Of a stretch of DNA of 32,503 nt, positions 27,974 to 32,109 are shown piece after piece (the stretch's first letter is position 1; every line of letters begins with the position of its first letter). The stretch spans positions 1 to 32,503 of IMG/VR virus record IMGVR_UViG_3300020204_000217. The stretch is one strand, 5' to 3'. Under the pieces are notes generated by a model. The model saw only the letters and a list, made by a program, of their open reading frames with translations. It did not search any database and was not told the DNA's origin. The position numbers were made by a program, and so were the translations under genes. The stretch is from a virus.

Positions 27974-28198
27974 TTATCTAAAACCAGGTCTATCTATTTT
28001 ATTGGATTTTGGCGTTCTTGAAGCCTCTTTTTGTTGATCAGCTTCTTTTTCTTTTGCGTCTATTAACTTTTTGTAGTAAAAATTACGCAAATATACAGGC
28101 AATTCGTATAACTCAATTGGGGAAAATCCGCCGTTACCGTAATAACACAAATCAAAAATAACTTGTTGTATATATAACTTATACTCTGGAGTCAGGCC
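27974..28198 (-). CDS. Frameshift-encoded tail assembly chaperone domain (gp51/T-like)
   Basis: A 74-codon frame with no ATG, GTG or early TTG start, following a stop (TGA) upstream in the same frame. From the slip point it reads GLTPEYKLYIQQVIFDLCYYGNGGFSPIELYELPVYLRNFYYKKL and ends in a Lys/Glu-rich helix. The pattern of a Tyr/Phe-rich helix, a glycine turn, E-L-Y-x-L-P-x-x-L-R and Y-x-x-K-L fits the second part of phage tail assembly chaperones and T4-type gp51-like proteins. It is probably made as a C-terminal extension of the gp26-like protein by a +1 or -2 shift on the T run at 28199-28205. It sits between gp26-like and tape measure genes, where such fusions occur in other tailed phages. 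Confidence 0.75.
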   Translation of the reverse strand, partial: GLTPEYKLYIQQVIFDLCYYGNGGFSPIELYELPVYLRNFYYKKLIDAKEKEADQQKEASRTPKSNKIDRPGFR

Positions 28199-28994
28199 AA
28201 AAAAACTGAACCGTCATCGGCACGGCTGCCCTTTCTTCAGCACCACATTCTTTGCAACAAAAATCAAATGTAGAATCTACATCAGGTGTTATGGATCTAA
28301 CATGTTTTCTAAATTCGAGAGAATCACGACTTTGCATGTTTTCAACAAAAGTCTTTATTTTAGCAGGATTATCATCGCCGTCTACAGCGACTATTGTTTT
28401 TTTCAATCTAAGCGTAATTTCACTTGATCCGCCTTTATTGATTTTGTTCATCGCTGTATTTTCTCGTTCTATATCTTTTTCATCCGCATCAGTCAATAAT
28501 TTAAACTTAATGTTAGATTTTGAATATGGTAGTGTATAAGAAAATACATTTACACCTGGTTCATATTTGGTTTCGTCAAAGTCTTTTTGATTTAATTGAC
28601 TTAAATCTACATTTACTTGATTCGATGCTTGACATTTAGGACACTTTATTTCTACAGGTCCATAACTATCACCATACGCTAATCTGCGTACTGCAAAAAT
28701 AAGTGCGTTTTTATCTCCAATTAACAATTCACTCGGATTGATGTTTTTATCGATAATCAAAGAATCCAACAACTTATCAATAGCCATTCCTTTTTTAAGT
28801 AAATTTGGATTGGTTAAAATATCTTCCTCTTTTGCAGTCATCATCTTAATTTCAATTTGACCTGATGAAAGTATACTATTTTTAGGATAAAAATAACCTT
28901 TGCTGGGAAGATCAATGATTTCAGTAGGAAATGATTGTTTTTGAATTGATTGATTCGCTGGCGTAGTTCTGCTTATAATAATTTCATCACTCAT
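28179..28994 (-). CDS. gp26-like baseplate hub protein with zinc site (T4_baseplate family)
   Basis: A 271-residue protein of the T4 gp26 baseplate family. N-terminus with FPTEIIDLPSKGYFYP and KMMTAKEEDILT (the family hallmark), DSLIIDKNINPSELLIGDKNALIFAVRRLAYGDSY, and two Cys pairs, CPKC (118-121) and CKEC (247-250), that likely bind one zinc ion. T4 gp26 is 208 residues. It is needed for hub assembly, and in many phages this protein works as a chaperone partner of the tape measure. Just before the zero-frame end (VQFFWPDSRV) it contains a T7 run from which a frame shift would add a 75-codon tail. The gene is upstream of the tape measure gene and follows the nucleotidyltransferase-like gene. 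Confidence 0.9.
   Translation of the reverse strand: MSDEIIISRTTPANQSIQKQSFPTEIIDLPSKGYFYPKNSILSSGQIEIKMMTAKEEDILTNPNLLKKGMAIDKLLDSLIIDKNINPSELLIGDKNALIFAVRRLAYGDSYGPVEIKCPKCQASNQVNVDLSQLNQKDFDETKYEPGVNVFSYTLPYSKSNIKFKLLTDADEKDIERENTAMNKINKGGSSEITLRLKKTIVAVDGDDNPAKIKTFVENMQSRDSLEFRKHVRSITPDVDSTFDFCCKECGAEERAAVPMTVQFFWPDSRV
28197..28208 (-). other. Candidate programmed frameshift site CAG TTT TTT TGG
   Basis: Seven consecutive T on the minus strand (28199-28205) at codons 264-265 of the gp26-like protein, 5 codons from its stop. A slip of one Phe-tRNA by +1 or -2 on the run joins frame 0 to the frame of 27974-28198; the -1 frame instead meets TGA at once. Confidence 0.55.
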
Positions 28995-29043: not shown

Positions 29044-29952
29044 TTAAGTTTTAGCTTGCTGCTTAGCAGCATCTCTCATGGATTTTTTTGCATCCAATGT
29101 TTTTTTTGCACTGTCCAATGATGCCTGGGCTGTCGTTTTTTCTTCATCTGTATTTGCATTATCTACTTTTTCTTTTGCAACATTATACTTTTCTTGAGCA
29201 TCATCCAGTTCAGCTTGTCTTTGAACTACAAGAGCCAAATTGGCTTTATTTGTGGCATCTTTTACCTTAGCTTCATCTTCTTTCAAAATACCAGCAATAA
29301 TTCTTTTTAATGATTGTTTTTGTCTTTCACTAAGCTGATCTGCAATTGCACCCAGTTTAGTATCCATAATTTGTCTTACTTCATCGCTGTATTTACCAAA
29401 TAAATCTGTAATAAACAGTTTCTTTTGTTTTGGTGTAAGAGTGACATATTGTTTTCTTAACTCACTCGCACTTCTTGCTGGTTTACCTAATACAGTAAAA
29501 TCTGTAGTTGGTACTGTATCAATATAACCATGTTTAACAGCAGGTTCTAACTTATCTAACTTTTTAGGAAGTGGTTGTAAATAAGAAGGTGATCCATCTT
29601 TTTTAGTAAATTTACTGAATCTAGGATCTTCCGCCATATCTTTCTCACTTACAGCAAATATTAATGAATCTCTATCTATATCAATAGGTATTTGACCCAT
29701 TAAGTTATTTACATTGTAATTTGAAACAACTTTAATTATCTTAGCTAAAGGTATACCGGTAAGCAACATCATGCTAGCTTTTTCATCAAAGTTGAATGGC
29801 GACTTTGGTAATTCCACTTTATCAGTGGTTGTTATATAAACATCACTACCGCCATATTTTGTGCTTAAATAATCATATACACCTTTATGACCTTTGTGCC
29901 AGGGGTGAAATCTTCCTGCGAAAATTACAAATATTTTTTTATTTAATTGCAT
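29044..29952 (-). CDS. Nucleotidyltransferase (cytidylyltransferase-like) with C-terminal coiled coil
   Basis: A 302-residue protein. The N-terminal 200 residues have a nucleotidylyltransferase fold: FVIFAGRFHPWHKGHKGVYDYL carries the HxGH motif (H19-K-G-H22) that binds a nucleotide triphosphate, followed by NFDEKASMMLLTGIP, and KPARSASELRKQYVTL near 155-170 stands where such enzymes have their C-terminal ISSTxxR-like loop (here RSASELR). The C-terminal third is a long, Ala/Lys/Glu-rich coiled coil. Cytidylyltransferase-like genes occur among structural genes of many marine T4-like phages; the substrate is unknown. It lies between tail tube and gp26-like genes and after a terminator, so it starts a new transcript. 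Start at 29952. Confidence 0.82.
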   Translation of the reverse strand: MQLNKKIFVIFAGRFHPWHKGHKGVYDYLSTKYGGSDVYITTTDKVELPKSPFNFDEKASMMLLTGIPLAKIIKVVSNYNVNNLMGQIPIDIDRDSLIFAVSEKDMAEDPRFSKFTKKDGSPSYLQPLPKKLDKLEPAVKHGYIDTVPTTDFTVLGKPARSASELRKQYVTLTPKQKKLFITDLFGKYSDEVRQIMDTKLGAIADQLSERQKQSLKRIIAGILKEDEAKVKDATNKANLALVVQRQAELDDAQEKYNVAKEKVDNANTDEEKTTAQASLDSAKKTLDAKKSMRDAAKQQAKT

Positions 29953-30009: not shown

Positions 30010-30501
30010 TTAAAATTGTAAAATACAATAGTCTGGTTGAATCGTAAGACTGATTGTCAACGCTGCGCCGTCATCGCTCCAGTCCATATCTCCGAAAGTA
30101 GCTTCAGTGATGAAACATCCACGAAGACTCCATTCTTCAACTTTATCACCTACAGGACCAAGTACATTTACAGTAAGATCTTTTTTGTAAAAATCTTGAT
30201 AACCATCACGACCGGTTACAGATTCATGATGTAAACGTACCCATTCCATTACTGCTTGAGCACCACTTGGAACGATTGGATCATAAAGTTCCAAACTAAT
30301 CGATTGCCAAATACTCTTGCCCTTATAGAATGTACGAATATTGATGTGATCGAGTTCTTTAGAAGCTTGACTTAACTTTGGTCGAGAGGTCTTCTTGATT
30401 ATGAACGATGGTACACCATCACAATAAAGTATAAACCTATTCTTCACCTTTGGTTCAAATGCCGTTGTAAATATTTCGTTCGGATTTAATAGCTCTGCCA
30501 T
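30010..30501 (-). CDS. Tail tube protein (T4 gp19-like)
   Basis: A 163-residue protein, the same length as T4 gp19. Pattern: FEPKVKNRFILYCDGVPSFIIKKTSRPKL at the start, KSIWQSISLELYDPIVPSGAQAVMEWVRLHHES in the middle, VEEWSLRGCFITEATFGDMDWSDDGAALTISLTIQPDYCIL at the end, the standard order of myovirus tail tube proteins. It polymerises into the inner tube of the contractile tail. Good AAAGG ribosome site 8 nt before the ATG, and a TATAAATA octamer on the plus strand at 30521-30528. It is isolated by a terminator, as fits a high-copy protein. Assignment is firm. Confidence 0.94.
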   Translation of the reverse strand: MAELLNPNEIFTTAFEPKVKNRFILYCDGVPSFIIKKTSRPKLSQASKELDHINIRTFYKGKSIWQSISLELYDPIVPSGAQAVMEWVRLHHESVTGRDGYQDFYKKDLTVNVLGPVGDKVEEWSLRGCFITEATFGDMDWSDDGAALTISLTIQPDYCILQF

Positions 30502-30603: not shown

Positions 30604-32109
30604 ATGAGTAGACCGAAAAATAATCCTGATTGCATTGAAAAAGTGTGTAAAAATTGTAATACTACTTATAAAGTTTCTTTTTATAAGAGAAACAAATCGA
30701 CTTATTGTAGCAAAAAATGTTCAAATACAAATATTGATGTTTTAAACAAAATACGTGAATCTCAAAAGAAAACTCACATTCAAAAGTATAATGGTTTGCA
30801 TCCGATGCAAACAGAAAAAACAAAACAAAATTTTAAAAATGCTCTTATTAATAAATATGGTGTTGAAAGTTATAGCAAATTGTCCGAATACAAAGAGAAA
30901 GTTAAAAAAACTAAATTAGAAAGATATGGTGATGAAAATTATAATAATATATCACAAATAAAATCTACATGCCTTGAAAAATATGGAGTGGATAATATCC
31001 TTAAACATAAAAAAACAAGAGAAAAAATTAGTGATAAGAACAAATTAGAACGATTTGGTTTTATTAAAAATTATTGTGAAGCTAAAAATATTGTACCTTT
31101 ATTCTCAGAATCTGAATATGATGGTTATTCGTTTAAAAACAAATATAAATTTAGTTGTAATAAATGCAATAAAATATTTGAAACGGATGTATATAGATTA
31201 AATCATATTTTTTGTAATTATTGTAACCCATTGGATAAAACAACACTTGAAAATGAATTGTATCATTTTATAAAATCCATAATCGGCAATGATGTGATCG
31301 TTAAAAGAAAAGATAGAACTATATTGAATGGAAAAGAGTTAGATATTTATATTCCTTCAAATAATTTAGCTATAGAATTAAACGGATTATATTGGCACAG
31401 TGAAAATGGCAATGATATTAAAAAACTCTACCATTTAAATAAAAGTCGTAGTTGTATCTCAAAAGGAATAAAACTAATTCATATATTTGAAAATGAATGG
31501 CTTTATAAAAAAGAAATAGTAAAATCTATTATCAGTAATATTTTAAAATATAATGTAAATAAGATTTACGCACGAAATTGTGAAGTAAAAATGATTGATG
31601 ACATCAGTAAAAATATTTTCTTAGACAACAATCATCTTCAAGGCAAAGACAAATCTTCCATAAGATATGGATTGTTTTATAAGAATGAACTGGTTTCAGT
31701 AATGACATTTGTTAAATCTAGATTTGATAAAAAAATCCAGTATGAAATATATCGTTATAGTAATAAGTTAAATACAACCATATTAGGTGGTGCTTCAAAA
31801 CTTTTTAATCAATTTATAAGTGATTATTCACCTGAAAGTGTGGTAACTTATAGTGATAAAAGATATTTTGATGGTATCGTATATCAAAACTTAGGGTTCA
31901 ATTTTATTGAAAATACACCGCCTAATTATTGGTACATAAGTCCAGATTATAAAACTTCATATAATAGAATGACATTCCAGAAACATAAGCTTAGTAAGTT
32001 ACTTAAAAACTATGATATCAGTTTAACAGAATGGGAAAATATGACACAAAATGGTTACGATAGAATCTGGGACTGTGGAAATGGAAAATGGATATGGAAA
32101 AAAACTTAA
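30604..32109 (+). CDS. Free-standing homing endonuclease-like protein
   Basis: A 501-residue protein on the opposite strand to its neighbours. N-terminus: a zinc-finger-like C-x2-C ... C-x3-C (CKNC, CSKKC, residues 15-39). Then several repeats of the type K-x-x-L-E-(K/R)-Y-G-(V/D)-(E/D)-N (about 60-160), a DNA-binding module seen in phage mobile nucleases, a second zinc-binding region (CNKC, CNYC, 189-213) and the nuclease part: KELDIYIPSNNLAIELNGLYWHSE (about 246-269) resembling Vsr/EDxHD or PD-(D/E)xK homing nucleases, followed by LIHIFENEW. The C-terminal 190 residues hold an acyltransferase-like or unknown domain (SIRYGLFYKNELVSVMTFVKSRF). It lies between tail tube and the next gene, a common place for such inserts. 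It is probably a mobile gene. Confidence 0.85.
   Translation: MSRPKNNPDCIEKVCKNCNTTYKVSFYKRNKSTYCSKKCSNTNIDVLNKIRESQKKTHIQKYNGLHPMQTEKTKQNFKNALINKYGVESYSKLSEYKEKVKKTKLERYGDENYNNISQIKSTCLEKYGVDNILKHKKTREKISDKNKLERFGFIKNYCEAKNIVPLFSESEYDGYSFKNKYKFSCNKCNKIFETDVYRLNHIFCNYCNPLDKTTLENELYHFIKSIIGNDVIVKRKDRTILNGKELDIYIPSNNLAIELNGLYWHSENGNDIKKLYHLNKSRSCISKGIKLIHIFENEWLYKKEIVKSIISNILKYNVNKIYARNCEVKMIDDISKNIFLDNNHLQGKDKSSIRYGLFYKNELVSVMTFVKSRFDKKIQYEIYRYSNKLNTTILGGASKLFNQFISDYSPESVVTYSDKRYFDGIVYQNLGFNFIENTPPNYWYISPDYKTSYNRMTFQKHKLSKLLKNYDISLTEWENMTQNGYDRIWDCGNGKWIWKKT

Follow-up and report, generated by a model that had tools for sequence, protein, structure and literature searches.

Tail assembly chaperones, probably frameshifted, and their split form

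T4 genes 26 and 51 reportedly encode a chaperone pair, gp26 (TAC-N) and gp51 (TAC-NC), as described by Vladimirov, Gautam and Davidson in 2022 (Virology 566:9-15). In phage lambda, the tail assembly chaperones gpG and gpGT arise by a -1 shift in a ratio of about 30:1. The two are alike in binding the tape measure protein, while the tube protein is bound by the T part of the longer one (PMC5009743). The shift used for such chaperones differs between phages and can be -1, -2 or +1 (PMC5009743). For T4-like phages, the passages of PMC10885494 and PMC12846349 on this subject attribute the identification of the chaperones to Vladimirov et al. 2022; the former states that in some of them one short and one long gene replace frameshifting, and the latter that poly-T -1 signals are known in their TAC-N genes.

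The locus described here lies on the minus strand of a 32.5-kb virus record, analysed as one stretch of 32,503 nt (the window). Its features had been listed in a first-pass annotation that left the strand unstated, and they were confirmed. As in lambda (PMC5009743), a short and a long chaperone would be encoded by one gene, with the frameshift just before the tape measure gene; the two are likened by arrangement, the shift of lambda is -1, unlike that favoured for the window, and the 30:1 ratio is that of lambda. We regard it as very probable that the locus produces a gp26-type TAC-N together with a minority, +1-frameshifted TAC-NC, forming a tail chaperone pair of the G/GT kind. The frame relation, the slip site, the selection acting on the second frame, the homology and the gene order were each established by comparison with relatives, and together they make this G/GT-like reading, already put forward in the first-pass annotation, the best explanation of the locus. 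What we infer is the chaperone function of the products, as well as the occurrence of frameshifting in living cells, with its +1 direction and its rate.

The expectation that such a gene would extend the known set stands only in part: the core reading appears right, and it is mostly not new, given that T4-like chaperones were published in 2022. The predicted frameshift belongs to this published kind. The +1 branch and its set of slip sites may be new, as the text of PMC5009743 and the relevant passages of PMC10885494 and PMC12846349 mention no +1 shift for this branch.

The gp26-type gene and its startless second frame

ORF1, the zero-frame gene, is indeed gp26-like, as it had been called: it carries the Pfam T4_baseplate domain PF12322 (E 6e-16, 59.2 bits against a cut-off of 24.5, residues 42-266) and matches phrog_150, annotated as baseplate hub (E 3.8e-18). 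ORF1 and the second frame, ORF2, were modelled separately. The AlphaFold model of ORF1 (pLDDT 83.8) resembles predicted phage baseplate hub and T4-like hub assembly proteins, and the best two solved chains in the VIA second look at this model were YqbN (3klu, Z 5.2), which we take to be a member of the XkdN-like chaperone family, and the HK97 tail assembly chaperone (2ob9, Z 4.8), so that the match of the N-domain to a chaperone fold is modest (Z about 5). A search of solved structures by sequence returned no convincing match.

Features of the chaperone locus and its neighbours in the window
Feature	Position	Strand	Evidence
TAC-N gene, gp26-type, 271 aa, zero-frame product	28179..28994	-	PF12322, phrog_150, AF2 model
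Slip site TTT TTT TGG (T7 run 28205..28199, then GG)	28197..28205	-	sequence; conserved in relatives
TAC-C region, +1 frame, 74 codons + stop, startless	27974..28198	-	frame, dN/dS, helical model
Presumed tape measure protein gene, 1010 aa	24911..27943	-	position, synteny with immuto (L081)
Tail tube gene, gp19 type	30010..30501	-	phrog_4542 tail tube, E 1e-26
Nucleotidyltransferase-like gene	29044..29952	-	phrog_395 cytidyltransferase, E 3e-5

The 3' end of ORF1 reads CAG TTT TTT TGG CCT GAC TCC AGA GTA TAA in the zero frame, with its stop codon at 28181..28179. The ORF2 frame, which is +1 and equally -2 relative to ORF1, is open from 28213 and closes at 27976..27974, and exactly 74 of its codons (28198..27977) follow the shift. 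The two observations from which the frameshift had first been proposed are borne out: this 74-codon frame has neither an ATG nor a GTG start, its sole candidate being an internal TTG, and the -1 frame closes immediately after the run, where CCTGAC contains TGA. When ORF1 and ORF2 are read with one extra base at the run, a 339-aa fusion results.

ORF2 was also said to lie directly ahead of the tape measure gene, and only 30 nt separate its stop from the start of the 1010-aa ORF, which occupies the tape-measure position. In Flavobacterium phage immuto, a cultured relative in which the hub gene and then ORF2 come after the tail sheath gene and the tail completion/tube position and before the tape measure gene, the last of these is annotated as tail tape measure protein. 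The putative chaperone gene is short and has the tail tube gene on one side and the tape measure gene on the other, as expected for the G/GT type, with the tape measure call resting on position and synteny. One extra gene, nucleotidyltransferase-like, separates the tail tube and chaperone genes in the window; it is outside the frameshift mechanism. On the opposite strand, a 501-aa ORF (30604-32109, +) adjoins the tail tube gene and, by eye, looks like a free-standing homing endonuclease.

The second frame had been described as conserved-looking, and in close, least saturated pairs the dN/dS of ORF2 is 0.10-0.17 (values rise in distant pairs, which are saturated), which is the signature of purifying selection at the sequence level. 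Its model is a helical hairpin (helices 9-26 and 40-65, pLDDT 81.7). Taken alone, ORF2 gave nothing significant in PHROG and Pfam scans or in a structure search, and its direct comparison with T4 gp51 is not significant (E 0.07-0.22); the link runs through the cyanophages. ORF2 matches the cyanophage gp51 domain (E 4.6e-5, probability 68%), which in turn matches T4 gp51 (E 2e-11). With hhalign, the +1 fusion family aligns end to end with the cyanophage -1 fusion of gp26 and gp51 (94%, E 1.5e-7), and the latter aligns with full-length T4 gp51 (99%, E 2e-19). The gp51-like call of the first-pass annotation is supported by this chain from the +1 fusion through the cyanophage fusion to T4 gp51, as well as by the name gp51 given to the equivalent in S-PM2. 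By homology, the product would be a TAC-N/TAC-NC pair composed of gp26 and a gp51-type C-domain.

Slip site, direction of the shift and competing explanations

In a first set of viral contigs, 79 of 79 testable relatives (56 unique junctions) carry the motif TT[TC]TTTTGGCCT in an unchanged frame, followed by ORF2 in +1. An enlarged set, composed of viral-contig, immuto-type, phage-record and bacterial-contig loci, has the slip site with ORF2 in the +1 frame at 162 of 164 loci (123 unique sequences); of the two exceptions, L083 has another site and L215 is unplaceable, its contig ending there. The only relative from bacterial genomes sits on a contig of 3 kb and carries the TTTTTTTGG site too. 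As unique sequences, the variants are TTT TTT TGG (87), TTT CTT TGG (29), TTC TTT TGG (3), TTT CTA TGG (3) and TTT CTT TAC (1). The T7 run is intact in the window and in 117 of the 162 placed relatives, and interrupted by C (TTTCTTT, TTCTTTT, TTTCTAT) in the other 45, where the longest T run is 3 or 4. In L018, L025 and L033 any shift would have to lie within a stretch that opens 2 nt ahead of the T run and closes 24 nt past the first base of the run. As in genes of the G/GT type, the C-domain is found in the other frame, startless, behind a conserved slip site.

These variants bear on every explanation in which the homopolymer itself is at fault. A sequencing or assembly error could have split a normal gene at the run, and RNA polymerase could slip on the T run and join the frames in the transcript rather than on the ribosome, for which the T7 run of the window and most placed relatives would be suitable. 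Both are disfavoured because the C-containing variants break the T run, and the 45 interrupted loci keep the same frame relation; we give transcriptional slippage very little credence. An error, moreover, cannot recur in 123 unique sequences, many of them without a long homopolymer, and the identical T run is present in the independent contig L001. The homopolymer artefact that had been named as a danger to the original proposal is thereby removed and, judged from the aligned loci, the frame relation is neither a sequencing error nor chance.

ORF2 might instead be a separate gene translated from a weak internal codon. The record of Mel-JY01 annotates it as a CDS of its own, gp51 of S-PM2 has an ATG, and in some relatives a TTG follows about 9 codons into the frame. 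In most relatives, however, the first 15 codons hold no ATG, GTG or TTG, the conserved FFGLT stretch begins at the slip site itself, and the cyanophage ATG is not kept, L replacing M in many. In none of the relatives in these sets is the startless frame replaced by a separate gene with its own ATG, an outcome that would have told against the first reading. A separate gene, like a gene split by error, is highly improbable.

With regard to direction, the first-pass annotation had noted that only +1 or -2 joins the frames; both do reach the ORF2 frame, and the slip-site variants favour +1. A -2 shift, known for Mu (PMC5009743), would move the ribosome back two bases on the T run and add one extra Phe, and in the plain T7 run its re-pairing is perfect. 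In the interrupted variants, full -2 re-pairing is found in none: it drops to 2, 2 and 1 of 3 positions for TTC TTT TGG, TTT CTT TGG and TTT CTA TGG, whereas the frame and full +1 re-pairing are kept. The TTC variant, furthermore, occurs in three separate sequence clusters, each with near relatives carrying TTT. Every variant offers at least one P-site codon with full +1 re-pairing, although no one codon serves them all, since it is the first Phe codon that re-pairs in the CTT and CTA variants and the second in the TTC variants. The second Phe codon is TTT in 56 of 56 unique junctions, while TTC makes up 23% of Phe codons overall (623/2685); the corresponding log10 P of -7.4, valid if junctions are independent, is only indicative, since the junctions share ancestry and the +1 frame places its own constraint on that base. 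A -2 shift is therefore unlikely, and +1 slippage is favoured as the best explanation of the junction because the C-containing variants spoil -2 re-pairing. The two directions predict different junction peptides, VQFFGLTPEYK for +1 and VQFFFGLTPEYK for -2.

Under +1 slippage, translation would in most cases end at 28179 with TAC-N, the 271-aa gp26-type product. In a minority of cases the ribosome would slip on the Phe-Phe codons of UUU_UUU_UGG, with the P-site tRNA-Phe re-pairing one base downstream, and would go on to read GGC CUG ACU ..., adding the 74-residue helical gp51-type C-domain, for a TAC-NC of 339 aa. If lambda gpG/gpGT is a guide, the tape measure protein, whose gene comes next, would be covered by the short and the long form alike, tail tube subunits would be brought in through the C-domain of the rarer form, and the finished virion would contain neither form. 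The frameshift of E. coli RF2 (prfB) is also a +1 P-site slip, from CUU to UUU (PMC5009743), comparable to the CTT_TGG of the immuto branch; in RF2, however, a stop codon follows the slip codon, where the window has UGG, and a Shine-Dalgarno lies close upstream. GGAGG is present in part of the relatives about 20 nt upstream, by inspection too far for an RF2-style element, and with mean z values of -0.36 and -0.51 the RNA 3' of the slip site folds no more stably than shuffled sequences. Neither 3' RNA folding nor inspection for an upstream Shine-Dalgarno revealed a stimulatory element.

Cyanophages, T4 and other relatives

In cyanophage S-PM2, gp26 is followed at the matching position by a 57-aa ORF annotated gp51 (L109:3191-3364); T TTT TTC precedes it, its frame is -1, and its annotated ATG is Leu in many relatives. 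The -1 site U_UUU_UUC stands at the matching Phe-Phe position in 80 of 80 cyanophage loci, and the S-PM2 ORF is, on this comparison, better read as the -1 frameshifted C-domain of gp26 than as a separate gene. S-PM2 and its 80 viral-contig relatives share with the window the order of gp26, a short gp51 ORF and then a long ORF, and the slip site at the matching Phe-Phe position, but their frame relation is -1, with U_UUU_UUC, and that of the window is +1, with UUU_UUU_UGG and its variants. In T4, gp26 and gp51 both carry PF12322 (E 9e-64 and 4e-52), the N-domain family of the window, and gp51 has an extra C-domain, homologous to ORF2 via the cyanophages; unlike the one gene plus shift of the window, T4 has two separate genes, 26 and 51, and no frameshift.

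A tree built on 39 N-domains unites the +1 phages in a single supported group (97/91), with the window, immuto, Mel-JY01, RM378 and the jumbo type of 484 kb as members, and places the cyanophage -1 group with the T4 gp26 and gp51 genes (100/99). Atu_ph07 and XaC1, both -1, fall just outside the +1 phages, and a -1 jumbo phage (L091) stands beside SP-15-type phages with weak support. The frame labels require 4 changes on this tree, the minimum being 3; branches are long, and deep placements are unsure. We lean towards the reading that a T4-like branch, with phages of Flavobacterium, Microcystis and Rhodothermus and many uncultured ones, switched its chaperone shift from -1 to +1, or the reverse, keeping the Phe-Phe position and using a family of undescribed +1 sites (UUU_UUU_UGG, UUU_CUU_UGG, UUU_CUA_UGG and UUC_UUU_UGG). 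The branch of the window would skip forward where the relatives compared here would slip backward. A known chaperone trick would extend to a large, mostly uncultured T4-like branch, in which annotation usually misses the second half of the gene. Since a single homologous position carries +1 sites in some phages and -1 sites in others, with a two-gene version in T4, these sites form a natural series, and the way in which phages change shift direction while keeping the two products becomes testable in reporters.

T4-type gp26 and gp51 (L103-L106, and L092 of T4) group beside the -1 cyanophage form, which is where they would be expected had a frameshifted gene undergone duplication and then been split in the T4 line. 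The gp26 genes of Atu_ph07 (L089), XaC1 (L090) and a 595-kb phage (L091) have T TTT TTC with a startless -1 frame behind it, which is annotated as a small hypothetical ORF or is absent from the annotation. In SP-15 (L085), LIS04 (L086) and a Streptococcus phage (L084), ORF2 is in +1 and the slip site appears to be different, with CC CGA TT common near the end of ORF1.
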